From Rhodoferax potami (lineage in GTDB: Bacteria > Pseudomonadota > Gammaproteobacteria > Burkholderiales > Burkholderiaceae_C), in NCBI RefSeq assembly GCF_032193765.1, contig NZ_JAVBIJ010000001.1:1240001-1304000 (forward strand): DNA of 64,000 bases, in the 5' to 3' direction. Positions 16,157 through 31,948 of this stretch are shown here, piece by piece (position 1 is the first letter of the stretch; each line of letters opens with the position of its first letter). The position numbers were made by a program, and so were the translations under genes. The notes beneath the pieces were generated by a model. It had not been told where the DNA came from, ran no database searches, and saw nothing but the letters and a program-made list of their open reading frames with translations.

Positions 16157-16166
16157 CGTGGGGCGG

Positions 16167-16976
16167 TCAGGCGGTCACAAAGTCAGGGGTGGCGGGGCTG
16201 CCGGCGGACAAGGTCAACACTTCATAGCCGGTGGAGGTCACGAGCACGGTGTGCTCCCATTGCGCGGACAAGGAGCGGTCTTTGGTCACGATGCTCCAGC
16301 CGTCTTTCTCGGGGCCGTCTTTGATGTCTTTGCCGCCGGCGTTGATCATGGGCTCGATGGTGAAGGTCATGCCTTCCTTGAGTTTTTCAAGGGTGCCGGG
16401 CTTGCCGTAGTGCAACACTTGGGGCTCTTCATGGAACACTTGGCCGATGCCGTGGCCGCAAAACTCGCGCACCACGCTGAAGCCCTTGCCCTCGGCAAAA
16501 CGCTGGATCGCGTGACCGATATCACCGAGATGGATGCCGGGCTTGACCATCTGGATGCCGACCCACATGGCTTCATAGGTGACAGAGCACAGGCGCTTGG
16601 CCGCGATCGAGCAGTTGCCCACCGGGAACATGCGGCTGGTGTCGCCGTGCCAGCCGTCTTTGATGACGGTGACGTCGATGTTGACGATGTCGCCTTTTTT
16701 CAATTGCTTGTCATTGGGGATGCCGTGGCACACCTGCTGGTTGACCGAGGTGCAGATGGACTTGGGGTAGGGCGTGTTGCCGCCACCGGTGTAGTTCAAG
16801 GGCGCAGGAATGGCGCCTTGCACTTGGGTGATGTAGTCGTGGGCCAGCTTGTCGAGCTCGTTGGTCGTCACGCCGGGCTGCACGAAGGGCGTGAGGTAAT
16901 CCAGAACTTCAGAGGCAAGTCTGCCCGCGATGCGCATGCCGGCAATGCCTTGGGCGTCTTTGTAAGTGATAGTCAT
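16167..16976 (-). CDS. map: Map, type I methionine aminopeptidase
   Basis: Map removes the N-terminal methionine after deformylation. It is 269 residues. The five metal ligands of the pita-bread fold are present: two aspartates in [14 protein letters not shown], the histidine in [11 protein letters not shown], and glutamates in TIEPM and QWEHTV. It is the first gene of map-glnD. In relatives, rpsB often lies on the other side of map; here the polysaccharide island lies there instead, which suggests that the island was placed at this junction. Confidence 0.96.
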
Positions 16977-16990
16977 GGGCAGAGATTATC
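16977..16990 (-). promoter_or_regulatory. Candidate leaderless promoter of map
   Basis: On the minus strand GATAAT (16990-16985) is followed by exactly 8 bases and the map ATG, as at dapC and rlhA. No clear -35 box is seen. Confidence 0.4.
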
Positions 16991-17032
16991 CGTGCAAACG
17001 CCGGGCGGGCTGTAGCTTCGAGTTATCTGCAC

Positions 17033-17046
17033 TCTGGACTCTGGAC
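17033..17046 (+). repeat. Tandem 7-bp repeat upstream of manC
   Basis: TCTGGAC occurs twice head to tail (17033-17039 and 17040-17046) in the map-manC intergenic region, about 50 bases before the manC start. It could be a regulatory half-site pair or chance. Confidence 0.3.
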
Positions 17047-17096
17047 TCAAATTGCTCCTGTTAAACTTGCTGGTTTATCTTCAGGGCAACAAAAAA

Positions 17097-18563
17097 ATGA
17101 AGCTTGTTTCGGTCGTTTTATCAGGAGGGGCCGGAACCCGCCTGTGGCCAGCCTCACGCCAGGCGTTCCCAAAGCCATTTATGAAGCTGGGCGGAAAGGC
17201 GCTGCTTGAACAGGCAATTTCCCGAGGCCAGTCATGTGGTACAGAAGACCTTTTCATTGTTACCAACCAAGATCACCTTTTCCTCACCCAAGGCTTGATT
17301 GCCGAAATGGCCCAGCCACCCAAGGTGAGTTACCTGCTGGAGCCCAAAGGCCGCAACACAGCGCCGGCAATTGCTTTGGCTGCACTCGCAGTTGCCGAGC
17401 AACATGGCCGCGACGCTGTAATGCTCGTATTGGCGGCAGACCATTTGATTCCCGATACTGCTGCGTTTGTTGCTAACTCGCTGGAGGCTGCGCGTCTTGC
17501 ACTTCAAGGGCAACTCGTGGTTTTTGGCATCCGCCCCTCAGGCCCTGAAACTGGATTCGGTTATGTCGAAGTCGCCGAAGTTGGTGATCAAGCCCAAGCC
17601 GTGATCAAGTTTGTTGAAAAGCCAAATCTTGAAACTGCGCAAGGATATTTGGCAACCGGCAGATTTTTTTGGAACAGTGGAATGTTCTGCTTCACCGCTG
17701 GGGCGATGTTGGATGCGCTGGCCGCGCATGCGCCGCAAGTGTTTGCGGCAGCACAGGCAGCAGCTGCTACCAGCAGCGTTGAGTCCGGGCAAGGCGCCAC
17801 CGAAAAGGTCACTCGCTTTGATCCCCACGCATTCGGTCTGCAACCCGATATCAGCATCGATTACGCCATCATGGAGCGGGCCAGAAATGTCTCGCTTGTT
17901 CCTGCAAAGTTTGGCTGGAGCGATGTGGGTGCTTGGCCTGCTGTGGCGGATGCGCATACTGCCAATGGCAATGGCAACACCATGGCGTGCGATAGCCATA
18001 TCGATTGGGTGGACGTAAACACCTCCAACACCCACGTGCATATTGACACACAAGGGCACAAACAAGTGGTTGCAACCATTGGCATTCACAATGCCGTGAT
18101 TGTTCATACCCCAGATGCATTGCTGGTCGCGGACAAAGCACAAGCGCAGGACGTCAAGAAGGTGGTTGAAGCGCTCAAGCAGCGACACATCGACAGTGCC
18201 CAGTACCAAAGCACCATCTTGCCTTCTTCGGTGAATCGGCCCTGGGGGACCTACACGACGCTTAAAGAAGAGGGCGGCTACAAAGTCAAACGTATCACAG
18301 TGAAACCAGGCCAAAGACTGAGCCTGCAGTATCACCACCACCGCGCGGAGCATTGGACAGTGGTGCGCGGCCACGGCTTAGTCCAAATCGGGGATGAAAA
18401 ATACCCTACAGGGCCTGGCGAATACCGGTACATCCCCCTCAAGGAGACGCATCGCTTGTCCAACACCGGGGAAGAAGAGCTCGTTTTGATTGAAGTCCAG
18501 GTCGGTGACTATTTGGGTGAAGACGATATCGTCAGGCTGCAAGACAACTACGGACGCGCATGA
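17097..18563 (+). CDS. manC: ManC/AlgA-type GDP-mannose pyrophosphorylase and mannose-6-phosphate isomerase
   Basis: This 488-residue protein makes GDP-mannose from mannose-1-phosphate and GTP. The C-terminal cupin half carries the type II phosphomannose isomerase activity. The pyrophosphorylase signature GGAGTRLWPASRQAFPKPF is at residues 10-28. The C-terminal domain has the isomerase metal motif (QYHHHRAEHW). I chose the ATG at 17097 because the family begins immediately before the first beta strand (MKLVSVVLSGG). It heads the polysaccharide island and overlaps the next gene by 4 bp (ATGA). No phosphomannomutase, gmd or rmd is seen in the window, so the sugar may be used as mannose or converted by genes elsewhere. 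Confidence 0.93.
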   Translation: MKLVSVVLSGGAGTRLWPASRQAFPKPFMKLGGKALLEQAISRGQSCGTEDLFIVTNQDHLFLTQGLIAEMAQPPKVSYLLEPKGRNTAPAIALAALAVAEQHGRDAVMLVLAADHLIPDTAAFVANSLEAARLALQGQLVVFGIRPSGPETGFGYVEVAEVGDQAQAVIKFVEKPNLETAQGYLATGRFFWNSGMFCFTAGAMLDALAAHAPQVFAAAQAAAATSSVESGQGATEKVTRFDPHAFGLQPDISIDYAIMERARNVSLVPAKFGWSDVGAWPAVADAHTANGNGNTMACDSHIDWVDVNTSNTHVHIDTQGHKQVVATIGIHNAVIVHTPDALLVADKAQAQDVKKVVEALKQRHIDSAQYQSTILPSSVNRPWGTYTTLKEEGGYKVKRITVKPGQRLSLQYHHHRAEHWTVVRGHGLVQIGDEKYPTGPGEYRYIPLKETHRLSNTGEEELVLIEVQVGDYLGEDDIVRLQDNYGRA

Positions 18564-19357
18564 TTCTGAGTCTTCTCAGCCCGGTTTGGGCTTATCGCGG
18601 ATTTGTTTTGGGAAACGTCAAGCGCGAATTCCAAATCAAATACCGGAACTCCATTTTAGGTGCGGCGTGGAACGTAATTAATCCGCTGGCGATGATTGTG
18701 GTTTATACAGTCATCTTCGCTGAGTTAATGCGCGCAAAGCTCCCGGGTGTTGACGGCACTTTTGCTTACAGCATTTATTTGTGTGCGGGAACATTGGCCT
18801 GGGGTTTGTTTACCGAGATAGTAAATCGCGGGCAAACCATGTTTTTGGACAACGCAAATTTACTCAAAAAGATTAGCTTTCCACGACTTTGTCTTCCCGT
18901 TGCAGTGGTAGCTAACGCGCTTGTCAATTTTGGCTTGGTGTTCGGGTTGTTTGTGGCGTTTCTATTGCTAACGAATAATTTCCCAGGCTTGCCGTTTATT
19001 GCCACAATCCCGTTGATTGGACTTTTAGTGTTGTTTGCTGTTGGTTTGGGTATGGTACTGGGTGTTCTAAACGTATTCTTTAGGGATGTGGGGCAATTTT
19101 TCGGGATTTTTATCACATTTTGGTTTTGGTTTACGCCCATTGTGTACCCTGCCAACATTCTCCCGAACCGCATAAAGGATGCAATGGATTGGAATCCTAT
19201 GGCCCCCATATTGGGTGCCTTACAGGGTGTGTTAGTGCGATCTGAATGGCCGCATTGGGAGAATTTGGCATATCCAGCGGTTCTTGCCCTGCTCCTATGC
19301 GGGCTTGGCCTGCGCCTATTCCGCAAGCACGCGGGCGAAATGGTGGATGAACTTTGA
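18560..19357 (+). CDS. wzm: Wzm-type polysaccharide ABC exporter permease
   Basis: This 265-residue integral membrane protein of the ABC-2 family has about six membrane segments. It forms the channel through which an undecaprenyl-linked polysaccharide is moved to the periplasm. The N-terminal sequence (YRGFVLGNVKREFQIKYRNS) with a basic amphipathic region before the first segment is typical of Wzm and KpsM-like permeases. It overlaps manC by 4 bp and the ATPase gene by one base. The gene order permease then ATPase after manC is that of A-band and O9a-type O-antigen clusters. Confidence 0.92.
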   Translation: MILSLLSPVWAYRGFVLGNVKREFQIKYRNSILGAAWNVINPLAMIVVYTVIFAELMRAKLPGVDGTFAYSIYLCAGTLAWGLFTEIVNRGQTMFLDNANLLKKISFPRLCLPVAVVANALVNFGLVFGLFVAFLLLTNNFPGLPFIATIPLIGLLVLFAVGLGMVLGVLNVFFRDVGQFFGIFITFWFWFTPIVYPANILPNRIKDAMDWNPMAPILGALQGVLVRSEWPHWENLAYPAVLALLLCGLGLRLFRKHAGEMVDEL

Positions 19358-20580
19358 TGGGCTCAATAATAGTTAGTAATTTGGGGAAAGCTTATAAGCA
19401 ATACCCTAGTCGCAGTGCGCGGTTGCGAGAATGGCTAACCCCCGGAAATCGGCAGTACCATCACACGAAGTGGGTACTGCAAGATATCAATTTTACCGTT
19501 AACCCTGGCGAGGCCGTAGGCATCATTGGCATTAATGGTGCAGGTAAAAGTACACTGCTGAAACTCATTACCGGGACTACCCAGCCCACCACGGGGAGTG
19601 TCCATATGCAGGGCCGCGTGGCTGCCATGCTTGAGTTGGGCATGGGCTTCCACCCCGACTTTACTGGTCGGCAAAATGCATTCATGGCCGGCCAGTTACT
19701 CGGTATGTCCGGGAATGACATCGCCAGGCTCATGCCGGAGATAGAGGCTTTTGCGGATATTGGCAGCTACATCGACCAGCCGGTCCGCGTTTACAGCAGC
19801 GGTATGCAAATGCGGTTGGCTTTCAGCGTAGCTACCGCTGTCCGCCCAGATATCTTGATTGTGGACGAGGCATTGTCAGTAGGTGACGCATATTTCCAGC
19901 ACAAAAGCTTTGACCGCATCCGCGCGTTCAGAAAGCTGGGTACTACGCTGCTGATCGTGAGCCACGACAAAGGCGCTATACAGAGCATCTGCGATCGCGC
20001 CATTTTGCTCAACGCGGGACGTTTGGCTATGGAGGGCGAGCCGGAGGCTGTCATGGACTACTACAACGCTATGCTGGCTGACCACCAGAACCAAGAAGTA
20101 AAACAAGTACTGCGTGAGGATGGCAAGGTTCAGACAATCTCAGGTACGGGTGAGGCTACCGTTACCTCCATTACCTTGCTCGATGCTCAAGATCGGCCGG
20201 TAGAGGTGGTGGAAGTTGGACAGGCCGTGTGCTTACGGATAAATGTAAAAGTACATGCATCAATCGATAAGCTTGTTTTAGGTTACGGGATTAAGGATCG
20301 CTTAGGCCAAGTAATGTACGGAACCAATACACACCTGAAAGAACTGCCCTTGTTGAATTCTGCAGCGGGTGATCAGTTCCAATTTGATATTGCATTCGGA
20401 GCCAATCTTGGAGTTGGTACTTATTCAGTGCAGACCGCTTTAGTAAGCGACGATACTCACGTTTCTAACAACTACGAATGGCGCGACTTGGCGCTAGTTT
20501 TCAATGTGATCAATATTAACAAGACTCACTTTTCTGGATGTGCTTGGATGGATCCAACTATACATATATCAGCACTATGA
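19357..20580 (+). CDS. wzt: Wzt-type polysaccharide ABC exporter ATPase with C-terminal substrate domain
   Basis: This 407-residue protein is the ATPase partner of the preceding permease. Walker A GINGAGKST is at residues 58-66. The ABC signature region VYSSGMQMRLAFSVAT, Walker B ILIVDEALSVGD and the switch histidine (IVSHD) follow. After residue about 250 there is an extra domain of about 150 residues. In Wzt proteins a domain at this place binds the modified non-reducing end of the finished chain and selects it for export. This implies that the chain carries a terminal cap, which fits the methyltransferase domain in the next gene. The start overlaps the wzm stop (TGATG). Confidence 0.92.
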   Translation: MGSIIVSNLGKAYKQYPSRSARLREWLTPGNRQYHHTKWVLQDINFTVNPGEAVGIIGINGAGKSTLLKLITGTTQPTTGSVHMQGRVAAMLELGMGFHPDFTGRQNAFMAGQLLGMSGNDIARLMPEIEAFADIGSYIDQPVRVYSSGMQMRLAFSVATAVRPDILIVDEALSVGDAYFQHKSFDRIRAFRKLGTTLLIVSHDKGAIQSICDRAILLNAGRLAMEGEPEAVMDYYNAMLADHQNQEVKQVLREDGKVQTISGTGEATVTSITLLDAQDRPVEVVEVGQAVCLRINVKVHASIDKLVLGYGIKDRLGQVMYGTNTHLKELPLLNSAAGDQFQFDIAFGANLGVGTYSVQTALVSDDTHVSNNYEWRDLALVFNVININKTHFSGCAWMDPTIHISAL

Positions 20581-22655
20581 AACTTATTTCATACGCACAA
20601 AACTTTGAAGACGTGATGCTCTGGCGTGCGCTTAAGCATATCGAAAATGGTTTTTATATCGATGTTGGCGCAGCTTGGCCGGATGAACATTCGGTAACAA
20701 AGCTTTTTTATTTAGCAGGATGGACCGGCATAAATGTAGAGCCGAATCCGCAGTTTCACGTTAAATTAAATTCAGTCCGAACCAAAGATATAAATTTGCC
20801 TGTTGCAGTAAGTGACAAAGCGGGTCAGGTATCAATGAACTTCATTAAAGATACCGGTCTTTCTACTGCGTCCAGTGAAATCGCTGCAATGCATGTTGCG
20901 GCAGGTTGGCAGGTGAGTCCTCAACTGGTTGAGCTCAAGACACTAGCGGAGATATGCAAAGACCACTTACCAAAGAAGCAGGAAATCAACTTCCTAAAAA
21001 TCGATGTCGAAGGCTTTGAAGAAAGCGTCATTCGTGGCAATGATTGGAGTCAGTACAGGCCTTGGATAGTAGTGGTGGAGGCGACGCTCCCTATGTCACA
21101 GGTCGAGTCATTTGCATCTTGGGAATCAATTCTGTTTGCTGCCAAATACACTTTTGTGTACGCAGACGGGTTGAACAGATTTTATGTTTCAGAAGAGCAT
21201 TTGGAGTTGGCATCCGCATTTAAATATCCACCGAATGTATTTGATGAATTTTCCTTGTGCACCGCGGTGATTGCTGAAGAGGAAGCCCAACAAGCCCGGG
21301 TAAGAGCACAACAGGCCGAAGAGGAAGCCCAACAAGCCCGGGTAAGAGCACAACAGGCCGAAGAGGAAGCCCAACAAGCCCGGGTAAGAGCACAACAGGC
21401 CGAAGAGGAAGCCCAACAAGCCCGGGTAAGAGCACAACAGGCAGAAGAAAAGGCTCAACTGGCCGTGGAACTGAGCGCAAATTATCAAAGAGAAATTCAA
21501 AAAGTGCTCAATTCTCTGTCCTGGCGAATTACGAAACCACTGAGAGACTTGAATCCAAAGTATAAATTAATCTCGCTTTTAAGAAAAAACAAGAAGTTGG
21601 TCAAAAAACTGTCTTGGCTTGATAGCGTTGCGCCAAATTTTTGGCGTCGCCTTGAAGCCATAGCTCTAGAGAGTCACTCCCCCTCGACGGACTACATTAC
21701 CCTTAGTTTCGATGACTTTAGCCTTAACTTTGCTAAAGGGCCGTTAAGTGATTCACGTGGCATTGGGCGCGTATCGCGAGAACTTCTAAAACACCTTACT
21801 GCATCGGCTAGCCCCAAGGAAGCAGACGCGGAAAAAAAGGAGATTCATTTTTTTACGTCAATACATTGGTGCCCGGACGTTTTGCCTTCAAACTCTGTTG
21901 TACTTATACATGATGTAATACCCCTGCTTTTTCCGGAAGAATTTCCTGAGGGGATAGTTAAGGAATGGCGAGGTAGATTTAAATCAATTGCGCAATCTGC
22001 CAGCAAGATTGTGACGATCAGTCAGGCAAGCGCTGAGTCCATTGTTAAGTTACTCAATGTACCGCCAGAAAACGTATCTGTTGTACACAATGGCGTTAGT
22101 AAATTACCGGTAGCGGATAATCTTGATTTGCCGTTGCCTGTTGCGAAATTTTTCGTATTTTTAGGTGCCAATGACTGGCACAAAAATTTAGAAGTTGTTT
22201 TCCAAGCGCTTTTGCATGACGAGGCTGCTGATTTGCATCTGGTTATGATTGGAAAGAACCACCAGTGCTTGGCAAGAGTTACTCAATTAGGCTTACAGAA
22301 ACGAGTGCATTTCCTTGGCGCTCTCTCTGACGCGGAAGTTGGCTACGTGTTGACGCGTTCAGCAGGCTTGGTATTCCCAAGTCTGTACGAAGGTTTTGGG
22401 CTTCCACCGCTTGAGGCGGCGCTTATCGGTGTGCCGAGTATTTGCAGCAGCCGGCCCGCGATGACAGAATTGATACCCACTGGTAATGTATTTTGCGCTC
22501 CTGATAACCCCGGTGATTGGGCTCGGGCCATGGTTAAAACGGCTAAAGCAACAGCAGGTAAGGCTGACGTTACGGAATTAAGCGTGTTCATTGAAAAGAA
22601 CTACACTTGGGATCGAACTGTGGCTAAGCTCTTGCAGGTTTTTGCAGGTCCATAA
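20577..22655 (+). CDS. FkbM methyltransferase - coiled coil - GT4 glycosyltransferase fusion
   Basis: This 692-residue protein has three parts. Residues 1 to about 210 are a FkbM-family SAM methyltransferase (GFYIDVGAAWPDEHS, GINVEPNP, FLKIDVEGFEESVIRG). Residues 234-289 are four 14-residue repeats, EEEAQQARVRAQQA, with alanine at every a and d position of two heptads; a degenerate fifth unit and the motif SWRITKPLR (315-323) follow. Residues about 370-690 are a GT4 glycosyltransferase (RGIGRVSRELLKHL, FLGANDWHKNLEVV, PSLYEGFGLPPLEA). The ATG at 20577 overlaps the wzt stop (ATGA). The repeats are nearly perfect at the DNA level, so the linker length may vary between cells. A role as a chain terminator or length ruler that hands the chain to Wzt is an inference from the architecture and position. 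Confidence 0.88.
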   Translation: MKLISYAQNFEDVMLWRALKHIENGFYIDVGAAWPDEHSVTKLFYLAGWTGINVEPNPQFHVKLNSVRTKDINLPVAVSDKAGQVSMNFIKDTGLSTASSEIAAMHVAAGWQVSPQLVELKTLAEICKDHLPKKQEINFLKIDVEGFEESVIRGNDWSQYRPWIVVVEATLPMSQVESFASWESILFAAKYTFVYADGLNRFYVSEEHLELASAFKYPPNVFDEFSLCTAVIAEEEAQQARVRAQQAEEEAQQARVRAQQAEEEAQQARVRAQQAEEEAQQARVRAQQAEEKAQLAVELSANYQREIQKVLNSLSWRITKPLRDLNPKYKLISLLRKNKKLVKKLSWLDSVAPNFWRRLEAIALESHSPSTDYITLSFDDFSLNFAKGPLSDSRGIGRVSRELLKHLTASASPKEADAEKKEIHFFTSIHWCPDVLPSNSVVLIHDVIPLLFPEEFPEGIVKEWRGRFKSIAQSASKIVTISQASAESIVKLLNVPPENVSVVHNGVSKLPVADNLDLPLPVAKFFVFLGANDWHKNLEVVFQALLHDEAADLHLVMIGKNHQCLARVTQLGLQKRVHFLGALSDAEVGYVLTRSAGLVFPSLYEGFGLPPLEAALIGVPSICSSRPAMTELIPTGNVFCAPDNPGDWARAMVKTAKATAGKADVTELSVFIEKNYTWDRTVAKLLQVFAGP
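21276..21443 (+). repeat. Four tandem 42-bp in-frame repeats (coiled-coil minisatellite)
   Basis: Units are 21276-21317, 21318-21359, 21360-21401 and 21402-21443. They are identical except that the last codon of unit 4 is GCA instead of GCC. Each unit encodes 14 residues, which is exactly two heptads, so gain or loss of a unit keeps both the frame and the coiled-coil register. A diverged fifth unit begins at 21444. Confidence 0.97.
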
Positions 22656-24691
22656 TGTCGAAACATAAAGAACATCAGGTGCCCACAGGAAAGCACTCCG
22701 TAAAAAAATGGCTTATACCGGTTTCCGTTATTCTTTTTATTTTTTATCAGCTAACTTCTGTTTTCTATTTTGATAAAAGTAACTTTTCCTACGATGAACC
22801 TCACTATCTTTTGGGCGCGCAGTCAATCTACTGTGACAGAGATCTAGATTTAGAAAATAACTATAGCGACAAGACTTACACTTTTTACTATGCGGGTCAA
22901 CTCGATCCACATGTTTCACCGAACTCAAAAGATGGTTGGTTTTCCATTCATGGATATGGCTTGTCATATATACTGGTGCCATCTTTTTGGATAACAGATA
23001 AGCTTCTGGTACTAGCAAAAAAAGATTTTTCAGTATGCATGACCTCTAAAAGAGACTTGTTACTCCAAAGCGACGCGAGCGCCGATTATCTGCTGAAAAT
23101 TTCTGTGAGCGTCACGCTGTCAACGTTCATGGTTTTATCTTTTATTTTCTTGGTGTTAACTCTTCTCGAAATAGAAAGCTCGGAAGAGGTCTGGAAAAAA
23201 TCATCATGCCCGTCGTGGCCAATATTGCTCGGGCTTTTTTGCGTTAATCCAATCCTCATCTACACCAAGTTTATTTCAGTTGAACTCCTTGCGTTTCTTT
23301 ACATATCCTTCATTGCATGGACTATTTCTCGTCGCTCATTCGACTGGGTGCATTGGCTTCTAGCACCCGTATGGAGCGGCTTATTGTTATTTGTCCATAT
23401 CAAATTTTTGGTTATCACTGCATCTGCGCTTTTATCTATCCTCTTGGTTTATAGAAAAGAAATAGGCCTCAAGAAACTCACTGTTGGCTTTTTGGTTTTT
23501 GTAAGTTGTGTAGCGTATTTGTGTATTGCAAATAAGCAGATGTATAACTCTTACGCACTCAATGCCCAATATTCTGAGGGTGCACTATCCGGCAAGTATC
23601 TTTTTCAAGGCATCCTTGGGCAGTTTTTGGATGGACATACTGGCCTATTCTTCTCTGCACCCATATTTTCTTTGTTGATTGTTTACGGACTATCGTGGCG
23701 AGCCAGTGCATTGACGAAGCGGTATGTTAATTTTTTCTTTATAGTTGGTGTTCCAACTATTGTACTTGCAAGTTTGCACGTGCTTAAGCAAAGTAATTTA
23801 TTTATGGCAGGGAAGTTTGACTTTATTAACTCGCTATTTACCGAGGCAAGCACTGTACCAATGTGGTTTCAAACGCCAATATCAAGATTTATTTTCCCCA
23901 TTATTTCTATTTTTGCTCTTCTTTTGAGTGGTGTTTTGTCAAAGGAAATTAATAAAGGAACAGCCTCAAGACTTATTATTGGCGGCTTATTTCTGACCAC
24001 ATTGGCGATTAGTTTTGTACAGCTTTTTAGCTTACCCCACACTTTGTTCCGACCAAATGCAAATTTCGAGGGTTTTGCGCCGCATTACACATTTATTTCT
24101 GAGCCATTGGTGCATTTCATACCAAATTTGCTTTCATTTAATTACGTTCTTGAAAATTTACTATTGACGTTTGTTTGGATTTTTGTTCTTTCATTTTTCC
24201 ATTATTTAAACGTTAAAAATAATATTGGTGCTCTGGGTTCTGTTTTGGCAGTTGGTTTTCTATCATTGCTGGTCAGTACAAGAATCGCAGAACACAATCA
24301 TGATCTAAAGATTGATCCAATGCGCATGCAAAGCAACTTGGCTTGGTCAGGAAACCACGAACTCAGAGTTTTTTCTACAGACGTCTCTAGATCAACTGAT
24401 ATTCTGTTTGGACCCTACGTTTACATTTCGTCTGGAAGGTTTTGCGCTAAAGTTCAATCATCCATCCGTGGCAGCTACACGAAGCTCAAATGGTATGTTG
24501 CAGATGGAATAACAGGCAAGCTGTACATAATGGATGAAATTACGCGCCCACTTGATTCTCAAGAATTTAATCCGGTCTTATGTTTTAATAATGAAACCCC
24601 TTATTACCCAAAAGAATTTAAAGTTTACGCGGAGAACTTTAACGGCCAGTTTTTGCTTAAGGGCATTGAATTCAAAAGAGAAGATGATTAA
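22655..24691 (+). CDS. GT-C-type membrane glycosyltransferase candidate
   Basis: This is a 678-residue polytopic membrane protein with roughly a dozen hydrophobic segments and a soluble tail of about 130 residues. The first periplasmic loop has an acidic pair in FSYDEPHYLLGA (D47, E48), followed by DRDLDLENNY. That pattern is typical of GT-C enzymes (GT39/GT83-like) that use polyprenyl-phosphate sugars. I cannot assign a named family. Its neighbours make polyprenylphosphoryl-arabinose, so an arabinofuranosyltransferase acting in the periplasm is the best guess; the mycobacterial counterpart would be AftA (Rv3792), which also lies beside GtrA-DprE1-DprE2. The gene is markedly AT-rich compared with core genes. 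It overlaps the previous stop (TAATG). Confidence 0.75.
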   Translation: MSKHKEHQVPTGKHSVKKWLIPVSVILFIFYQLTSVFYFDKSNFSYDEPHYLLGAQSIYCDRDLDLENNYSDKTYTFYYAGQLDPHVSPNSKDGWFSIHGYGLSYILVPSFWITDKLLVLAKKDFSVCMTSKRDLLLQSDASADYLLKISVSVTLSTFMVLSFIFLVLTLLEIESSEEVWKKSSCPSWPILLGLFCVNPILIYTKFISVELLAFLYISFIAWTISRRSFDWVHWLLAPVWSGLLLFVHIKFLVITASALLSILLVYRKEIGLKKLTVGFLVFVSCVAYLCIANKQMYNSYALNAQYSEGALSGKYLFQGILGQFLDGHTGLFFSAPIFSLLIVYGLSWRASALTKRYVNFFFIVGVPTIVLASLHVLKQSNLFMAGKFDFINSLFTEASTVPMWFQTPISRFIFPIISIFALLLSGVLSKEINKGTASRLIIGGLFLTTLAISFVQLFSLPHTLFRPNANFEGFAPHYTFISEPLVHFIPNLLSFNYVLENLLLTFVWIFVLSFFHYLNVKNNIGALGSVLAVGFLSLLVSTRIAEHNHDLKIDPMRMQSNLAWSGNHELRVFSTDVSRSTDILFGPYVYISSGRFCAKVQSSIRGSYTKLKWYVADGITGKLYIMDEITRPLDSQEFNPVLCFNNETPYYPKEFKVYAENFNGQFLLKGIEFKREDD

Positions 24692-24727
24692 AGCGCCAGC
24701 ACTAAAGGGAGTTGAGATTGTTTGATT

Positions 24728-25135
24728 ATGAACAAAATTTTAGTTATTAAATATATACTATTCTCTGGTTTTGCAACTGTAGTTAATTTGCTAACACAGG
24801 AAGCCTTTTTGGGCTTGCCTGTTTTGGGTGATTTTGTTTTTTTATCGATTTTGGCGGGAACTATAGTTGGGCTTCTATTAAAATACTTTTTAGATAAACA
24901 TTTTATTTTTGGTTTTATGCCAGTGAATAAAGTTCACGACTCTAAAGTTTTTGTTTTATATACAACCATGGGGATATTCACTACTTTGGTTTTTTGGAGT
25001 ATTGAGATGGGTTTTTATCTCATGTTTGACACCAAGGAGATGCGTTATGTTGGAGGCGTGATTGGGCTTGGTGTTGGATATCTTGTTAAATATCATTTGG
25101 ATAAGCGATATGTCTTTTCCGGGGAGGTTGTTTGA
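24728..25135 (+). CDS. GtrA-family membrane protein
   Basis: This 135-residue protein has four membrane segments and the GtrA-family pattern (VIKYILFSGFATVVNLLTQE at the N-terminus, LLKYFLDKHFIF in the middle, VKYHLDKRYVF at the end). GtrA proteins take part in moving polyprenyl-linked sugars across the membrane or in anchoring partner transferases. Its mycobacterial equivalent by position is Rv3789, immediately before dprE1. An AAAGGGAG Shine-Dalgarno (24704-24711) is spaced better for a TTG at 24722 than for the ATG at 24728, so the true start may be two codons earlier. AT-rich like the previous gene. Confidence 0.88.
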   Translation: MNKILVIKYILFSGFATVVNLLTQEAFLGLPVLGDFVFLSILAGTIVGLLLKYFLDKHFIFGFMPVNKVHDSKVFVLYTTMGIFTTLVFWSIEMGFYLMFDTKEMRYVGGVIGLGVGYLVKYHLDKRYVFSGEVV

Positions 25136-25140
25136 TACCA

Positions 25141-26433
25141 ATGACATCTTGGGGCCGGTTGGGAGCAACCCCGCACAATGTGGTCCCGTTGCGAGATCCG
25201 GTTGACACGCGTTTTGCAATCAGCCACCAGAATCACCGGGGAGTTGCGCGAGGAATGGGGCGAAGTTATGGCGATGTTTGTCTAAATCCGGGTGGAACCT
25301 TATGGACCACGGAGAAACTCAATAAATTCATATCTTTTAATACAAACAACGGTAGACTGCGGTGTGAAGCCGGCGTACTCTTAAGAGATATTCAGCGAAT
25401 GGTCATACCATATGGCTGGGCGTTACCAGTGACGCCGGGAACTCAAGTGGTTTCAGTTGGAGGGGCGATTGCTAATGATGTTCATGGCAAAAACCACCAT
25501 GTACATGGTTCTTTCGGAAATCATGTTAAGAAAATCTGTCTCGTGCGTACTGATGGAGAAGTTATTTCATGTGGACCTGAGAATGAGCCCGATTGGTTTG
25601 CGGCCACTGTGGGTGGGATGGGACTCACCGGAGTAATTACACAGGCAGAAATCCAATTGCGGCGAGTTGCTAGCCCGTGGCTAGATACTGAGACCATTGC
25701 TTTTGCCAACCTGTCTGAGTTTTTTCAACTTGCGGATGATTCAGAGACTCATTGTGAATATACAGTTTCTTGGATTGATTGTATTTCCGGAGTAGGAGGC
25801 CGAGGTTTATTTATGCGGGGCAATCATGCTGATGGCGGCGGCAGGAAAGTGCCAAAGAGCTCAAAATTAACGATACCTTTCGTCCCTCCTGTTTCTCTCG
25901 TTAATAAACTGTCGCTTCGTCCTTTTAATATGGCATATTTTCATCTTAACAAATGGAAGGCAGGTAAAGGCTCAGCATATTATGAATCTTTTTTTTGCCC
26001 ATTAGATAACCTTCTCGAGTGGAACCGGATGTATGGTCCAAAGGGCTTTTATCAATACCAAAGTGTAATCCCGCGTCGATTTGCCTATGACGCAATTGAA
26101 GAAATGTTGAAAGAAATTGCTAGGTCAGGAGATGGTTCGTTCCTTGCTGTATTGAAAACTTTTGGTAATCGCCAGTCTCTGGGGATGATGAGCTTTCCCA
26201 TGTCGGGTGCGACTTTGGCACTAGACTTTCCCAATCATGGGAATCGGACGCACAAGTTGTTTGAGCGGCTTGATGCTATTGTGTGTGAAGCTAGTGGCCG
26301 CATCTACCCTGCGAAGGATGCGAGGATGCCGCGCGATGTCTTTGAGGCTGGCTTTCCACGCCTGAATGAATTTATGAAGTTTCGAGACCCTGGCATCAGT
26401 TCCGGTCTTTCACGTCGCTTAATGGGGAGTTAA
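25141..26433 (+). CDS. dprE1: DprE1-like decaprenylphosphoryl-beta-D-ribose 2'-oxidase
   Basis: This 430-residue protein is an FAD-linked oxidase of the VAO/ALO type. In the known pathway DprE1 oxidises C2 of polyprenylphosphoryl ribose so that DprE2 can reduce it to arabinose. The FAD-binding motifs GMGRSYGD and PVTPGTQVVSVGGAI are present. So is HGKNHHVHGSFGNHV, which holds the histidine near the flavin. The C-terminal RIYPAKDAR keeps the lysine that corresponds to K418 of the M. tuberculosis enzyme. The segment GATLALDFP aligns with GWNICVDFP around mycobacterial C387, with Ala360 here in place of the cysteine. I chose the ATG at 25141 (GGGGAGG 13 bases upstream); a TTG at 25132 is possible. 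Confidence 0.88.
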   Translation: MTSWGRLGATPHNVVPLRDPVDTRFAISHQNHRGVARGMGRSYGDVCLNPGGTLWTTEKLNKFISFNTNNGRLRCEAGVLLRDIQRMVIPYGWALPVTPGTQVVSVGGAIANDVHGKNHHVHGSFGNHVKKICLVRTDGEVISCGPENEPDWFAATVGGMGLTGVITQAEIQLRRVASPWLDTETIAFANLSEFFQLADDSETHCEYTVSWIDCISGVGGRGLFMRGNHADGGGRKVPKSSKLTIPFVPPVSLVNKLSLRPFNMAYFHLNKWKAGKGSAYYESFFCPLDNLLEWNRMYGPKGFYQYQSVIPRRFAYDAIEEMLKEIARSGDGSFLAVLKTFGNRQSLGMMSFPMSGATLALDFPNHGNRTHKLFERLDAIVCEASGRIYPAKDARMPRDVFEAGFPRLNEFMKFRDPGISSGLSRRLMGS

Positions 26434-27186
26434 ATGGATATCAAGAAAAAAATTGTTATCGTAGGCGCAACCTCGGCTATCGCCGAACATTGCGCACGAC
26501 TATGGATCTCGCCGCACCCATCACATTTGATTCTAATTGGCCGAGATGCAGCGCGCGTAAATCGGGTAGCGGCGGACCTGAAAGTGCGTAGTCCGAGATC
26601 AGACATACAGGTTATTGAAACTGAATTCCTTAGTTCAGAAGCGATAGACACCACAGTTAACAGCCTATTCAAGTCTGGCGTTGTTGATATAGCCTTGATC
26701 GCGCATGGGTCGCTTCCTGATCAGGTCGAGTGTCAAGCAAACCTGCACCTTTGCCAAGATGCACTTTGTATCAATGGTGTGTCACCGGCACTATATGCCG
26801 AGGCTTTTGCCAAGGAGATGGAAAAAGTTAATCACGGCACCATCGCGATAATCGGGTCAGTTGCTGGTGACAGGGGGCGTAGGTCTAATTATGTTTACGG
26901 GGCGGCAAAAGGTCTTGTCAACCGATATGCCCAAGGCTTAAACCATCGTTTTTCTGGTACTAATGTTAAGGTAGTTTTCATTAAGCCAGGACCTACCGAT
27001 ACTCCCATGACCGCCCACTTAAAATCAACTGGCGCAAAACTTGCTCCAGTTGAAACTGTTGCTCGTCAGATTGTAGACGGTATCGATTCAGCTAAACCGG
27101 TGATTTATGCTCCGAGGAAGTGGTGGACCATCATGATGATTATCAGGCATTTACCCACATTCATATTTAATAAGATTAATATCTAA
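26434..27186 (+). CDS. dprE2: DprE2-like decaprenylphosphoryl-D-2-keto-erythropentose reductase
   Basis: This 250-residue short-chain dehydrogenase reduces the keto intermediate made by DprE1 to polyprenylphosphoryl-D-arabinose. The nucleotide-binding motif IVGATSAIAEHCA is at the N-terminus, and the catalytic YxxxK is YGAAK. The end of the protein (DTPMTAHLKS then a proline-containing stretch, WWTIMMIIRHLPTFIF) closely resembles the C-terminus of Rv3791 as I remember it, which sets it apart from generic SDRs. It starts right after the dprE1 stop, with no gap. Confidence 0.87.
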   Translation: MDIKKKIVIVGATSAIAEHCARLWISPHPSHLILIGRDAARVNRVAADLKVRSPRSDIQVIETEFLSSEAIDTTVNSLFKSGVVDIALIAHGSLPDQVECQANLHLCQDALCINGVSPALYAEAFAKEMEKVNHGTIAIIGSVAGDRGRRSNYVYGAAKGLVNRYAQGLNHRFSGTNVKVVFIKPGPTDTPMTAHLKSTGAKLAPVETVARQIVDGIDSAKPVIYAPRKWWTIMMIIRHLPTFIFNKINI

Positions 27187-27187
27187 T

Positions 27188-28090
27188 GTGAGCATATTTA
27201 TGAATCAATTTAAAACTCGAAGTGCTATTAGTCCACATGGGAGGTTTCTTGCACTTTTGAAATTAATGCGCCCAAAGCAGTGGGTGAAGAACGGCTTTGT
27301 GCTTGCGCCATTGGTATTTTCTGCTGCTTTTCTGGATGTCAGTGCCATCAGGCATGCTGTTATGGCTGCTTTGTTCTTTTGTGTTGCCTCTTCGGCGACC
27401 TATATCATCAATGACATGTACGACATCGAGCGTGATCGTCGTCACCCTAAGAAGTCAAAAACCCGCCCTTTGGCATCCGGCATTGTCTCGGTGCCTGCTG
27501 CCCTGAGCTTGCTCGTAGTCCTCTACGGAGTGCTGTTATGGGGCTGGTTCGTCGCCCCGAAGGTATTGGGGGTGATCGGAGCCTATCTAGTGCTGAACTT
27601 GGCCTATACCTTTGTGCTAAAGCACCAGCCGGTGGTCGACATCTTTACTATCGCTATTGGTTTTGTTTTACGGGTGTATGCAGGCGCCATGGCCCTCGAC
27701 GTGCCGGTGTCTTCATGGATGTTCATCACGACTCTTTGCCTCGCGCTCTATTTGGCAGCTGTCAAACGTCGTCAGGAACTCAGCCAAAGCGGTACCGAAG
27801 GCCGCAAGGTTCTGGAGAGGTACTCTGTTTCGTTGGTGGACCGCTATGCCGAAATGTCGGCAACTGGGGCGCTGCTTTTCTACAGTATGTTCGTTATGTC
27901 CGCCAAGCTAGAATTGGTCATCACGGTTCCGTTGGTGTTGTTCGGCTTATTTCGATATTGGTTCGTGGTGGAAGCCCTCGATGGTGGCGAGTCACCCACT
28001 GATGCGTTGTTAGCTGACTGGCAACTGTTGCTTACCGTTGTACTGTGGGTAGCTGCCTGCGGTTGGGCTTTGTGGCCAGTGCAGGGGTGA
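27188..28090 (+). CDS. UbiA-type polyprenyl-phosphate phosphoribosyltransferase (DPPR synthase)
   Basis: This roughly 300-residue UbiA-superfamily membrane protein has about eight or nine hydrophobic segments. The motif NDMYDIERDRRHPKKSKTRP (about residues 75-94) is the form found in decaprenylphosphate 5-phosphoribosyltransferases such as Rv3806c, where PRPP is the donor, rather than in UbiA proper. The expected product is polyprenylphosphoryl-5-phosphoribose, the substrate for the phosphatase encoded next. GTG at 27188 is used here; ATG at 27200 is an alternative. It follows dprE2 directly. Confidence 0.87.
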   Translation: MSIFMNQFKTRSAISPHGRFLALLKLMRPKQWVKNGFVLAPLVFSAAFLDVSAIRHAVMAALFFCVASSATYIINDMYDIERDRRHPKKSKTRPLASGIVSVPAALSLLVVLYGVLLWGWFVAPKVLGVIGAYLVLNLAYTFVLKHQPVVDIFTIAIGFVLRVYAGAMALDVPVSSWMFITTLCLALYLAAVKRRQELSQSGTEGRKVLERYSVSLVDRYAEMSATGALLFYSMFVMSAKLELVITVPLVLFGLFRYWFVVEALDGGESPTDALLADWQLLLTVVLWVAACGWALWPVQG

Positions 28091-28092
28091 GT

Positions 28093-28503
28093 ATGGACTT
28101 TTCCTACGCTTTAACTCCCTTTTTGGCCTGGCTTGTCGCTGGAGTCTCAAAGTTCATTATTAACAGCATCAAGGCAAAGCAGCTGGCGTTCGGCCTCGTC
28201 GGTTACGGGGGGCTTCCCAGCAACCATAGCGCAATTGTCAGCAGTATGGCCGCGCTGATTGCCCTCAAGGAAGGTATTGGGCACCCCGCCTTTGGCGTTG
28301 CCATTACTTTGGCCTTTATCGTTATGCTTGACGCGAGCAGTCTGCGGAGACAGGTGGGCAAGCACGCTGAGGCCATCAACAAAATAGCACACGCAGAAGC
28401 GAATCACCAAACCCTTCGTGAGCGTATGGGGCATACGCGATTGGAAATTGCTGCTGGTATTGTCGTGGGCATTTTGGTTGCTACTTTAATGAGTACGATG
28501 TGA
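28093..28503 (+). CDS. Divergent PAP2-family protein, candidate DPPR phosphatase
   Basis: This 136-residue membrane protein belongs to the divergent PAP2 (DUF212, acidPPc_N-like) family. The conserved core GLPSNHSAIVSSMAAL and the later FIVMLDASSLRRQVGKHAEA, with the family's D-x-x-x-x-R-R arrangement, are present. In mycobacteria a PAP2-type protein (Rv3807c) next to the UbiA enzyme is proposed to remove the 5-phosphate from polyprenylphosphoryl-5-phosphoribose. The same neighbourhood here argues for the same job, although the two are different PAP2 branches. It starts 2 bases after the previous stop and overlaps the next start (GTGA). Confidence 0.82.
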   Translation: MDFSYALTPFLAWLVAGVSKFIINSIKAKQLAFGLVGYGGLPSNHSAIVSSMAALIALKEGIGHPAFGVAITLAFIVMLDASSLRRQVGKHAEAINKIAHAEANHQTLRERMGHTRLEIAAGIVVGILVATLMSTM

Positions 28504-29480
28504 GCCTGATGTACGAGTTAAAGGCGGCAGACGCTCATGCCATAAGCCCGGCCAAAGGATCCCTCATATCAGCACGTTTAATGGCCATATGTGTCGCTGC
28601 CGCAGTGGCTGCATACGCGGTAATAATAGGACTAGCAAATTGGGAAAGAATAATGACTGTGGTGACTGGTCTTACTGGCCAGCTGTGGCTGCAACTCACT
28701 GCTCTGTCTTTAACTTCTTACCTACTCCGATTTTTGCGTTGGCACTATTTCATTTCTGCATTAAGTTACACGGTTCCAATATTTGTTAATCTCGAAATTT
28801 ATCTAACGGCGTTTGCGTTAACGCTTACGCCAGGAAAAGTGGGGGAGGTCATCCGGTCGGTGTATCTCCGTCCCTATGGCGTAAGTTATACCCATAGTCT
28901 CGGGGCATTCGTGTCGGAGAGACTTTTGGACTTAATGGCGGTAAGTATGTTCGCCACACTAGTAATATTGGTGTTTCCGGAGCAGCGGTCGTATGTGCTT
29001 GTCGCGGCATCCCTTGTATTTGCTCTATTTTTTTGCATGCGCACTCGACTACTGCATGTACTTGCTATCCGTTTCACGAAAATATCCCTCATTGACCACC
29101 CGGCAAGTCTTATCGCAACGATTAAATTTCTGCTAGCGGGCAAAGGACTCACGATTGCGGCGCTGTTGAGCGTTATGGCTTGGTTGATTCAGGGCGTATC
29201 TCTCTACGTGGTAGTCCGTGCGCTTGGATTTGATATACCGCTTGGCAGTGCTGTTGCAATATATTGTTTGAGTATTCTCGCCGGTGCGTTTTCTTTCATT
29301 CCGGGTGGCATCGGCGTGACGGAGGGGGCAATCGTTCTCCTTCTAATTGCTTCAGGTGTGGAGGATACCGTTGCGATCACGGCGGCGGTAATCGGTCGAG
29401 GGATTACGCTGTGGCTTGCGATTGCAATCGGTATCGGCGCAAACATCACGAAGAGCCTTCGGGCCAGTGAGCGAAATTGA
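28500..29480 (+). CDS. YbhN/UPF0104-family flippase-like membrane protein
   Basis: This 326-residue protein of the lysylphosphatidylglycerol-synthase membrane-domain family (UPF0104, AglD/YbhN-like) has about eight hydrophobic segments. Typical motifs are LTPGKVGEVIRSVYL and SFIPGGIGVTEGAIVLLL. Members often occur beside polyprenyl-phosphate sugar pathways and are suspected of moving or handling the lipid-linked sugar. Here it could serve polyprenylphosphoryl-arabinose alongside GtrA. GTG at 28500 overlaps the previous stop; ATG at 28509 is an alternative. Confidence 0.82.
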   Translation: MSLMYELKAADAHAISPAKGSLISARLMAICVAAAVAAYAVIIGLANWERIMTVVTGLTGQLWLQLTALSLTSYLLRFLRWHYFISALSYTVPIFVNLEIYLTAFALTLTPGKVGEVIRSVYLRPYGVSYTHSLGAFVSERLLDLMAVSMFATLVILVFPEQRSYVLVAASLVFALFFCMRTRLLHVLAIRFTKISLIDHPASLIATIKFLLAGKGLTIAALLSVMAWLIQGVSLYVVVRALGFDIPLGSAVAIYCLSILAGAFSFIPGGIGVTEGAIVLLLIASGVEDTVAITAAVIGRGITLWLAIAIGIGANITKSLRASERN

Positions 29481-29497
29481 GTGTTGAGGGAAAAATA

Positions 29498-30643
29498 ATG
29501 CGCATTGGTGTTGATGCACGGCTTTTGTCGTTGCCGTTGACTGGCATCGGGAGATATACGGTAGAAATGTTGCATGCACTGCAATTAAAAGATGCCGAGT
29601 GGCGTCTCTATTCCCCTATGCCACCGCTGTGCATTAACACATGGAATGAAAAAACCTGTCTGCGGTATGGCGTTGCAGATTCTCGGATTGCACGCATGAT
29701 CTGGTCTCAAACCAGCCTCCCTAAGTGGGCGTCCGATGATGAACTTGATGTTTTCTGGGGCGCCACACACCGCTTACCTTTTGCATTGCCAAAACATGTT
29801 GCGAGAGTGGTAACCATCCACGACTTAGTGTGGCGGCACGCGCCTCAAACCATGCGTTTTATCAGTCGCATTATGGATGCCCGCTTAATGCCTCAAGCGA
29901 TTCAAATGGCAGATGTGGTTGTAGCTGTATCGCAAAGCACTGCGAATGACATCGAGGCGGAGTTTCCATTTGCTCGTGGAAAAGTACGAGTGGTGCTGTT
30001 AGGTGCCAAGAAATTGGCACGATCACAGGCATGGGAGTCGTTGGCAAAATGGTCTATAAAGCTTCCCTACCTTTTGGCTGTGGGAACCCTTGAGCCACGT
30101 AAAAATCTGGTACGTTTACTCCATGCCTTCGCAGCAATTCCCGAGGCACTGCGTATCACCCACCAACTGGTCCTGGTAGGGGGTAAAGGCTGGGGAGGCG
30201 TTAGTTTGCCCGACGTTGTGGAAGAGCTGGGGCTGAGCCAGCACGTTGTTATTTGCGGATATGTTTCCGACGAAGAATTGACCACCCTATATACACATGC
30301 ATTATGCTTGGCCATGCCGTCGTTGTACGAGGGCTTTGGCTTACCCCTCGTGGAGGCGATGTCTTGCGGCACGCCTGTTATTGCATCCACAACCTCCTCC
30401 ATGCCAGAAGTCGTGGGACCCGCTGGCTTTCTTGTAGACCCCAATGACGTTGATTCGATTCGCACCGGCATTTGCCAGGTGTTGGATCCAAAATTTGATA
30501 AGACCTCTTGGGCTGAAATAGCAAAGCATCAGGCATCAAAGTTCACGTGGGACAGGGCTGCAGATCAAACAATGCAAGTTTTTGCAGAGGCAATAGAAGA
30601 ACGAAAAGGTAAATTGCGCAATGCGCGTTCTGCAATTTTTTAA
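29498..30643 (+). CDS. GT4 glycosyltransferase, WbdB/WbpY-like
   Basis: This 381-residue GT-B fold transferase opens with MRIGVDARLLSLPLTGIGRYT, the pattern of WbdB and WbpY, which add mannose or D-rhamnose during synthesis of homopolymer O-antigens. The donor-binding region LYEGFGLPLVEAMSCGTPV with its EGFGLP...E motif is intact. GAGGG (29486-29490), 7 bases before the ATG at 29498, fixes the start. An upstream in-frame GTG lacks such a site. It overlaps the next gene by 23 bp. Substrate specificity cannot be read from the sequence. Confidence 0.87.
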   Translation: MRIGVDARLLSLPLTGIGRYTVEMLHALQLKDAEWRLYSPMPPLCINTWNEKTCLRYGVADSRIARMIWSQTSLPKWASDDELDVFWGATHRLPFALPKHVARVVTIHDLVWRHAPQTMRFISRIMDARLMPQAIQMADVVVAVSQSTANDIEAEFPFARGKVRVVLLGAKKLARSQAWESLAKWSIKLPYLLAVGTLEPRKNLVRLLHAFAAIPEALRITHQLVLVGGKGWGGVSLPDVVEELGLSQHVVICGYVSDEELTTLYTHALCLAMPSLYEGFGLPLVEAMSCGTPVIASTTSSMPEVVGPAGFLVDPNDVDSIRTGICQVLDPKFDKTSWAEIAKHQASKFTWDRAADQTMQVFAEAIEERKGKLRNARSAIF

Positions 30644-31755
30644 AACGGCCTACCCGGATTCCATGGGGGGGGTGGAGCAGGTGATTCACCAGCTCGCTTG
30701 TGGGGGGATAGCTAGGGGCTTGGACATGCATGTTCTCTCGTTGACTGCCAAGAATATGCCGCGCCAGCAAGAGGTATTCGGGTACCACTTGCACCGGGCC
30801 AGGTTGGATATGCACTTGGCATCGACCGGTTTCTCACTTTCTGCCTTTAAACGCTTCGCCGCATTAGCGCGTGACGCTGACGTGGTGCACTACCACTTCC
30901 CGTGGCCATTCATGGACTTGGTGCACTTTGCAACGCGTATCCGCAAGCCCTCAGTGGTGACTTATCACTCTGACATTGTTCGACAGCAAAACCTGCTGAA
31001 ACTTTACCGCCCTCTGAAAAACCGCTTCCTGGGCAGCACGGACCGGATTATCGCGACGTCGCCCAACTACCTCGCCACCAGTGAGGTCTTGGCTAAGCAC
31101 CAAGGCCGGGTTGAAGTCATCCCGATCGGGCTGGACAGGGCAAGCTACCCCTCTCCGGATGCAGGGCGGCTGCAGTACTGGCGCTGACAGGCTGGGAACA
31201 AGGTTATTTCTATTTGTGGGTGTGTTGCGGTATTACAAAGGCCTGCATATCCTGCTTGAGGCGGCCAAGGGTACCGACCTCACGATCGCCATCGCAGGAG
31301 CGGGCCCGATCGAAGAAGAGTTGAAAGCGCAGGCGAACGCGCTGGGGCTCACAAACATGCACTTTTTGGGGCAAGTGGACGAGGGCGACAAGACCGCGCT
31401 TTTGCACCTTTGCCAGGCTGTGGTGTTTCCCTCGCATCTCCGGTCCGAGGCTTTTGGAATCACCTTGCTTGAGGGTGCGATGTACGGCAAGCCCATGATC
31501 TCCAGCGAAATTGGCACAGGTACATCGTTTATCAATATCTCCAACGAAACAGGTCTGGTCGTACCACCCAGCGATCCGAATGCGCTACGGGAAGCGATGC
31601 TCAAATTGCAACATTCGCCGGAGACTGCCAAGCAGATGGGCGCTGCGGCGCAGCGCAGGTTTGAGAGCCACTTTACTGCGGGCCAGATGGTGGATGCTTA
31701 CGTCGACCTTTACGGCAGAGTCATCGGTGAATTTCATACACGCAAGCGGGGATAG
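30621..31755 (+). pseudogene. GT4 glycosyltransferase, WbdC/WbpZ-like, interrupted by a +1 frameshift
   Basis: Two overlapping frames together make one GT4 protein of about 377 residues. The first part (30621-31187) starts MRVLQFFKTAYPDSMGGVEQ, typical of WbdC/WbpZ and PimB-like transferases, and stops in LQYWR followed by TGA. The second frame carries on with DRLGTRLFLFVGVLRYYKGL and includes FPSHLRSEAFGITLLEGAMY, the donor site. Removing one T at 31185 (TGGCGC-T-GACAGG) restores W-R-D-R-L-G in one frame. The site is not a homopolymer, so the usual sequencing error is less likely, but an assembly error cannot be excluded. If real, the N-terminal acceptor half and the C-terminal donor half are separated and the enzyme is probably inactive. 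Confidence 0.85.
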
Positions 31756-31948
31756 ACTCACCAGGCATACCTGAAACAACCGGTTTTTCCCTCTCGCGAT
31801 AAAGCGCAGCTTGCGACGCGGCCTCCGAATCAGGCAGCGTTCGCGCCGCCTCTGCGAGCTCACCGACCCTTCGTATCCACATCATTGCGACAGCTAAAAT
31901 ACTGGCTCTCGCAAGCGCCCCAGTAACTCGCCCACCTCAAGGCCCCCC
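31756..31948 (+). promoter_or_regulatory. Island-purL junction, probable purL promoter region
   Basis: No gene is seen in these 193 bases. A TAAAAT hexamer at 31895-31900, about 50 bases before the purL GTG, could be a -10 box, but no matching -35 is visible. AAGG at 31939-31942 is the probable ribosome-binding site of purL. No terminator for the island operon is evident. Confidence 0.35.

Follow-up and report, generated by a model that had tools for sequence, protein, structure and literature searches.

A low-GC island with a run of thirteen genes

The window analysed here, 64,000 nucleotides of Rhodoferax potami (contig NZ_JAVBIJ010000001.1, positions 1,240,001 to 1,304,000), carries between map and purL an island of 14,938 bp (16992..31929, no strand assigned) that replaces about 122 bp of empty site, as delimited by blastn against three congeners. 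Thirteen co-directional genes occupy it from about 17052 to 31755 in the order manC - wzm - wzt - FkbM/coil/GT4 - GT-C - gtrA - dprE1 - dprE2 - ubiA - DUF212 - ybhN-like - GT4 - GT4 (split). Since no intergenic gap exceeds 30 bases, the run was treated as one apparent operon, presumably with a common transcript. Its middle is formed by seven genes, neighbours among which overlap by at most 4 bases or lie at most 30 bases apart, that make up a candidate cassette for lipid-linked D-arabinofuranose (D-Araf). All seven frames lie on the + strand at 22655-29480, as in the original prediction, except for the start of the DUF212 gene, most likely at 28093 and not at 28045:

22655..24691, + strand: GT-C type membrane glycosyltransferase, candidate arabinosyltransferase with a beta-sandwich tail (residues ~560-678); about 11 hydropathy-predicted helices, motifs, context
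24722..25135, + strand: GtrA-type candidate flippase; NF037976 156 bits (cut-off 50), PF04138 28 bits
25132..26433, + strand: DprE1-like polyprenylphosphoryl-ribose 2'-oxidase; NCBIfam DprE1 model, best PDB matches DprE1
26434..27186, + strand: DprE2-like 2-keto reductase (short-chain dehydrogenase/reductase, SDR; YxxxK present); NCBIfam DprE2 model, best PDB match DprE2
27188..28090, + strand: UbiA-type polyprenyl-phosphate phosphoribosyltransferase without HAD domain; NF008977, PDB 8j8j 129 bits
28093..28503, + strand: DUF212, candidate 5'-phosphatase; PF02681 117 bits, genomic complementarity with HAD domains
28500..29480, + strand: YbhN/LPG_synthase_TM-type membrane protein, possible second carrier; PF03706 147 bits, follows DUF212 in five other loci

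The GC content is 0.38-0.55 inside the island and about 0.60 outside. In three of the four congeners searched (G125, G217 and G349) glnD, map and purL adjoin and the island is absent; the closest of them is G349, with GlnD and Map 99.4% and 98% identical to those of the window and DNA flanks about 96% identical. The contig of the fourth (L191) ends 2.5 kb above purL, map was not found there, and it is uninformative on the island. Low GC together with the absence in three congeners makes a recent gain the simplest reading, and probably the right one; alternatively, the island may have been lost in the three congeners. The host genome has a single DprE1-type gene above 100 bits and a single DUF212 gene, both in the island. 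DprE1 matches occurred in 64 plasmid records, 34 of them from Rhizobium and every one below 60% identity, and no match at E 1e-20 was present among 50,697 phage records. An open reading frame at 16131-17015 (+) was rejected as the flanking gene, which is map on the - strand (16167-16976). A promoter scan of the window gave fewer sites than shuffled sequences did and carries no information on promoters.

Donor enzymes and the phosphatase candidate

Mycobacterial enzymes are the best solved relatives of the DprE1, DprE2 and UbiA proteins. The two redox genes by far best match DprE1 (253 bits, E 4.5e-74) and DprE2 (98 bits, a lead of 58 bits over the next match at 40 bits) in the PDB, and not other flavin adenine dinucleotide oxidases or SDRs. 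As had been proposed, the DprE1, DprE2, UbiA, GtrA and DUF212 families were all matched, GtrA above its cut-off and three others below their equivalog cut-offs, namely DprE1 (357 bits, curated cut-off of NF053785 500), DprE2 (152 bits, curated cut-off of NF053786 250) and UbiA (223 bits, just below the 234 of the decaprenyl-phosphate phosphoribosyltransferase model NF008977). The residues of DprE1 aligned with His132, Lys134 and Lys418 of the Mycobacterium tuberculosis (Mtb) enzyme are kept (the numbering of Cys387 and Lys418 was checked), and we take them to have the same roles, Lys418 presumably being the catalytic lysine. The position aligned with Mtb Cys387 holds Ala, and that aligned with Tyr314 holds Phe. 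In the alignment, UbiA retains the N-D-x2-D-x3-D motif and the R-x2-E pair mutated by Kelly et al. 2024 (PMC11127046).

The original prediction that D-Araf is rare outside actinobacteria did not hold: counted at E up to 1e-30 and with the own genome included, DprE1 relatives occurred in 48 of 399 sampled family genomes (one weak, at most 30% identity) and in 58 of 398 sampled phylum genomes (five weak, at most 30% identity). From 103 distinct hits outside the own genome, 95 loci were fetched (96 with the window) and scanned with profiles built in the analysis; left out were the weak hits G387, G404, G784, G561, G458 and G454 (at most 30% identity) as well as G555 and G507. UbiA was not seen within 8.5 kb of DprE1 in 15 of the 96 loci, several of which are on short contigs. 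The loci L068-L072 and L074 hold DprE1 and a HAD-UbiA with no DprE2 relative above threshold and a gene of 335-346 residues instead, perhaps another epimerase set; the three scanned (L069, L070 and L074) have an EamA-like small transporter, which in L069 and L074 was found not to be GtrA.

DUF212 can be proposed, with moderate confidence, as the 5'-phosphatase of the island pathway, and nothing beyond 7 bits was found by a HAD profile search of the window stretch. Among the 81 UbiA-bearing DprE1 loci (window included), UbiA carries a fused HAD domain in 62 and lacks HAD in 19; the latter have DUF212 alongside in nine cases (window included), a separate HAD gene in five (Pfam-confirmed in four) and no nameable phosphatase in the fetched stretch in five (L037, L062, L077, L095 and L096). 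Two phosphatases never occur together within the fetched stretches of the 81 loci, and the DUF212 scores are clearly separated, with at least 250 bits in nine loci and less than 9 in the rest. The complementarity between DUF212 and HAD (Fisher p 3.5e-7, uncorrected) was unchanged when weak hits were counted, a recheck that was applied to GtrA and YbhN as well (see below). A survey of DUF212 relatives from named genomes, which kept the best 80 of 247 and shares some loci with the DprE1 set, found a HAD-less UbiA within 1.8 kb in 63, DprE1 in 58, DprE2 in 56 and GtrA in 50, and HAD of either kind at E 0.01 in none. DUF212 without UbiA or DprE1 in the fetched stretch was seen in L135, L162, L166, L167, L169-L173, L176, L177 and L180-L185.

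Within DUF212, K20, PSNHS and RERMGHT-x2-E are identical in nine of nine aligned sequences and fit what we take to be the PAP2 motif (K, PSxH, R-x-G-H-x3-D/E), with E replacing D. The structure model of the fold was weak, and a profile search of the PDB gave nothing meaningful. The suggestion of a PAP2-type phosphatase paired with UbiA as in Rv3806c-Rv3807c is thus borne out for the PAP2-like motifs but not for the family, since DUF212 is not the actinobacterial type: a Corynebacterium glutamicum control had no DUF212 match, while DprE1 matched, and Rv3807c is presumably an ordinary PAP2 protein. Among the open papers listed for DUF212, none gave the family a function or was listed as dealing with this phosphatase role. 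However, passages of PMC11127046 credit strain PA7 with a separate phosphatase of another structural family and note other phosphatases elsewhere, so the role may already be implied there.

Transferase, carriers and exporter genes

The C-terminal tail of the GT-C protein, the sole part with usable matches, resembles carbohydrate-binding modules, as in the GT136 prototype. The protein appears to be nearly an orphan, as phmmer at E 1e-5 found only itself in the 95 DprE1 loci, the 80 DUF212 loci and six further loci; a 33-bit match in L122 is that of its relative P0003 and not its own. By family, GtrA is the likely donor carrier, and where a strong hit was lacking, all eight small genes of GtrA size that were scanned are GtrA by Pfam (loci L016, L051, L049, L058, L064, L065, L102 and L039). 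Of the 96 DprE1 loci, 27 have a YbhN-type gene close to DprE1. In five loci of the DUF212 set, L106 (Microbulbifer) and L107 (Chromobacterium amazonense), both Pfam-checked, and L116, L139 and L175, it stands directly after DUF212 with GtrA also present; UbiA-DUF212-YbhN therefore recurs as a block.

On both sides of the cassette lie genes for an ATP-binding cassette (ABC) exporter and its glycan, several of which have counterparts in locus L195, from a Pseudomonas (par)aeruginosa genome taken as PA7:

17052..18563, + strand: manC, mannose-1-phosphate guanylyltransferase/isomerase (GDP-mannose supply); TIGR01479 486 bits, above cut-off
18560..19357, + strand: wzm, ABC exporter permease; 61% identity to L195 Wzm, NCBIfam polysaccharide permease models below cut-off
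19354..20580, + strand: wzt, ABC exporter ATPase with C-terminal glycan-binding domain; PF00005, PF14524 Wzt_C (124 bits), 64% identity to L195 Wzt
20538..22655 (probable start 20577), + strand: FkbM methyltransferase - coiled coil - GT4 fusion, candidate chain terminator/length ruler; PF05050, PF00534
21276..21448, + strand: 42-bp repeat, 4.1 copies, encoding a 14-residue coil unit; Tandem Repeats Finder, 99% matches
29477..30643, + strand: GT4 glycosyltransferase (backbone); PF00534, PF13439
30621..31755 (pieces 30621-31187 and 31081-31755), + strand: GT4 glycosyltransferase split by a frameshift; two overlapping frames, PF00534 on the second piece

A candidate chain-terminator setup is present, with the PF14524 domain of Wzt and an FkbM domain with 14-residue repeats. 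The repeat sequence predicts a coiled coil in the FkbM-GT4 protein, a probable terminator; the anchor motif used in the coil survey was present in 21 of the 44 proteins P0004-P0047. Three relatives, P0009, P0011 and P0013 (713, 727 and 699 residues), differ in the coil alone, by exact 14-residue steps in length, which looks like natural copy-number variation, an assembly error in the repeats being the alternative. WbdD is a known case of a coiled-coil length ruler (PMC11127046; PMC3482155), and a text search of open papers gave none that combined all the terms chosen for such variation.

The frameshift in the last gene lies at about 31,184, and the two pieces match adjoining stretches of the last L195 GT4 at 60% and 72%. 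The island has neither gmd nor rmd. Elsewhere in the genome, a separate XrtB/EpsF-type exopolysaccharide locus (L193, G000:C1:2330807-2344217) holds gmd next to a likely fcl (490 bits against a cut-off of 500; GDP-L-fucose), and no clear rmd was found in the host genome, where the rmd-like gene of L195 best matches the gmd of L193 (57 bits, 28%). Because gmd stands beside a likely fcl and a clear rmd was not seen, mannose is favoured over D-rhamnose, although the backbone sugar cannot be fixed. Two deltaproteobacterial DUF212 cassettes (L136 and L138) have in their vicinity a Wzm-Wzt exporter that is more distantly related (34% and 42-43% identity), and an ABC-exported glycan may be arabinosylated there too.

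Proposed pathway, alternatives and known systems

Taken together, the genes make it likely that the island encodes an ABC-transporter-dependent polysaccharide with D-Araf side groups added after export. DUF212 would take off the 5'-phosphate, DprE1 would oxidise C2 and DprE2 reduce it to give polyprenyl-phosphoryl-D-arabinofuranose, and GtrA, perhaps with the YbhN-type protein, would carry this donor to the periplasmic face. Meanwhile the GT4 enzymes, drawing on GDP-mannose, would build a cytoplasmic backbone of the mannose or rhamnose type, the FkbM-coil protein would cap it, and Wzm-Wzt would export it, the Wzt C-terminal domain reading the cap; the GT-C would then move arabinofuranose onto the exported backbone. 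Such a pathway serving an ABC-exported surface glycan, as originally predicted, is supported by homology, motifs, gene order and the L195 cassette, and by the close spacing of its genes with wzm-wzt in one island. The module is real, coherent and of a known kind with unusual parts (DUF212 replacing the usual HAD, a near-orphan GT-C with a carbohydrate-binding-like tail, and a coil of 42-bp repeats in the probable terminator), and it is probably working. If so, mycobacterial-type arabinose chemistry would be a mobile, mix-and-match part of Gram-negative surface antigens. We advance only tentatively, as one combined proposal, that DUF212 was recruited separately as a 5'-phosphatase for polyprenyl-phosphoryl-phosphoribose, forming a third class next to the fused and the free HAD enzymes, and that the length of the arabinose-decorated O chain is tuned by the copy number of the 42-bp repeat; a DUF would thereby gain an enzyme function that can be tested, and a repeat-based ruler would be a simple means to vary O-chain length.

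Several results weigh against this interpretation. The main warning is the frameshifted last GT4, whose second piece has no further copy in the genome at E 1e-10, so that the genes in their assembled form may fail to make the backbone. The GT-C had no family in Pfam or NCBIfam and no PDB sequence match, and its name therefore rests on the predicted helices, motifs and context; AlphaFold with three rows failed on its membrane part (predicted local distance difference test score 41), and no claim on its fold is therefore made. Relatives of the window Wzm were found near the cassette in none of the 95 DprE1 loci and in four of the 80 DUF212 loci (L136, L138, L158 and L159) by tblastn at E 1e-15, which could miss other exporter types. 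Seventeen of the 80 DUF212 relatives have no UbiA beside them; 12 of these are from Massilia or Janthinobacterium, and all but L135 are low in the list. A tree-aware test of DUF212 against HAD on the DprE1 tree had no power (median p 1; six independent pairs, of which one agrees and five show no difference). Mutual exclusion of the two candidate carriers was rejected: with a subfamily GtrA profile at 100 bits, 34 loci had GtrA alone, 26 YbhN alone, 35 neither and the window alone both (Fisher p 1e-5; tree-aware median p 0.5), but with weak hits 11 of 27 YbhN loci have GtrA too (p 0.07 at 10 bits, 0.12 when L051 is added), which lowers the odds that YbhN may act as a flippase. Finally, the L195 cassette adjoins an ABC-exporter locus yet reportedly serves pilin, so neighbourhood is no proof of the acceptor.

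The frameshift could also mean that the operon is decaying, the split GT4 having halted backbone synthesis and left the cassette silent or a relic, and the lack of another copy of the second piece and the low GC and recent arrival of the island would fit. We consider this unlikely, since the twelve other frames are open and the frameshift can be explained by an assembly error or be made good by another GT4. Somewhat less probable still is that the donor is made as described but the arabinose goes elsewhere, for example to a type IV pilin, with the exporter genes as mere neighbours. The homologous cassette of L195, next to manC-wzm-wzt in a strain with D-Araf on its pilin, speaks for such a route; here, however, the cassette stands between the FkbM-GT4 and GT4 genes and has its own GT-C with a glycan-binding-like tail, and no pilin-like gene occurs among the 13 island genes (no search was made for pilin loci in the rest of the genome). 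That the sugar is another pentofuranose such as ribose, with DprE1 and DprE2 acting partly or on another substrate, would suit their scores below the curated cut-offs and the Phe aligned with Mtb Tyr314 but is very improbable, as the two genes are adjacent, have DprE1 and DprE2 as by far their best PDB matches, and have homologs that passages of PMC11127046 place in loci of Araf-containing glycans.

Among the closest known systems are the three-component pentofuranose systems of the Citrobacter youngae O1/O2 O antigens (Kelly et al. 2024, PMC11127046; GT136), some such systems having DprE1/E2 according to passages of that paper. Both comprise a UbiA-type phosphoribosyl pyrophosphate transferase, a 5'-phosphatase, a small flippase and a GT-C with a beta-sandwich tail, with an optional epimerase, and both stand beside O-antigen genes of the ABC-exporter type that include a coiled-coil terminator and a Wzt whose glycan-binding domain is present. 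Unlike in C. youngae, the phosphatase candidate of the island is DUF212 instead of a HAD domain fused as in ORF15, the flippase candidates are of the GtrA and perhaps YbhN types, epimerisation would be carried out by DprE1/E2, and the terminator is an FkbM type fused to GT4.

With the mycobacterial decaprenylphosphoryl-arabinose pathway the island shares DprE1, DprE2 and UbiA homologs and the order GtrA-DprE1-DprE2, which we take to be that of the corresponding Rv-numbered genes. In contrast to mycobacteria, its lipid is expected to be undecaprenyl, it has a single GT-C, no arabinan machinery was seen in it, and DUF212 is not the actinobacterial phosphatase. In Azorhizobium, Nod factors are arabinosylated through noeCHOP, of which noeC, noeH and noeO are described as similar to mycobacterial enzymes in passages of PMC2443382; the acceptor there, a lipochitooligosaccharide, differs from the one proposed for the island. 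The pilin of P. aeruginosa (PA7/Pa5196), cited as a precedent in the original prediction, holds as such, D-Araf being documented on PA7 type IV pilin with the pilin-arabinose genes PSPA7_6245-6251 in passages of PMC12369383, but it is not the sole one, given the O-antigen systems with DprE1/E2 (PMC11127046) and, by similarity, the Azorhizobium genes (PMC2443382).

PSPA7_6245-6251 would correspond to the L195 genes. Of 25 genomes searched within one genus, seven have DUF212, the L195 genome among them, and the L195 proteins are 72% (UbiA), 71% (DUF212), 52% (GtrA), 43% (DprE2) and 42% (DprE1) identical to those of the window. As in the window, the L195 cassette adjoins manC-wzm-wzt-GT4 genes. 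Unlike the window, L195 has two divergent blocks, DUF212-UbiA and GtrA-DprE1-DprE2, other membrane proteins (frames of 575 and 370 residues), no GT-C like that of the window, gmd above its cut-off and, where rmd would be expected, a gene that we take to be rmd. The exporter locus in L195 is presumably that of the A-band or common polysaccharide antigen, and its manC (49%), wzm (61%), wzt (64%) and last GT4 (60-72%) are identical to the island genes to the extent given. The island differs from it by having no gmd or rmd and by its arabinose cassette and FkbM-coil-GT4 gene; from the homology of the exporter and GT4 genes, the window operon has the appearance of an exporter operon of the A-band type that contains the cassette.

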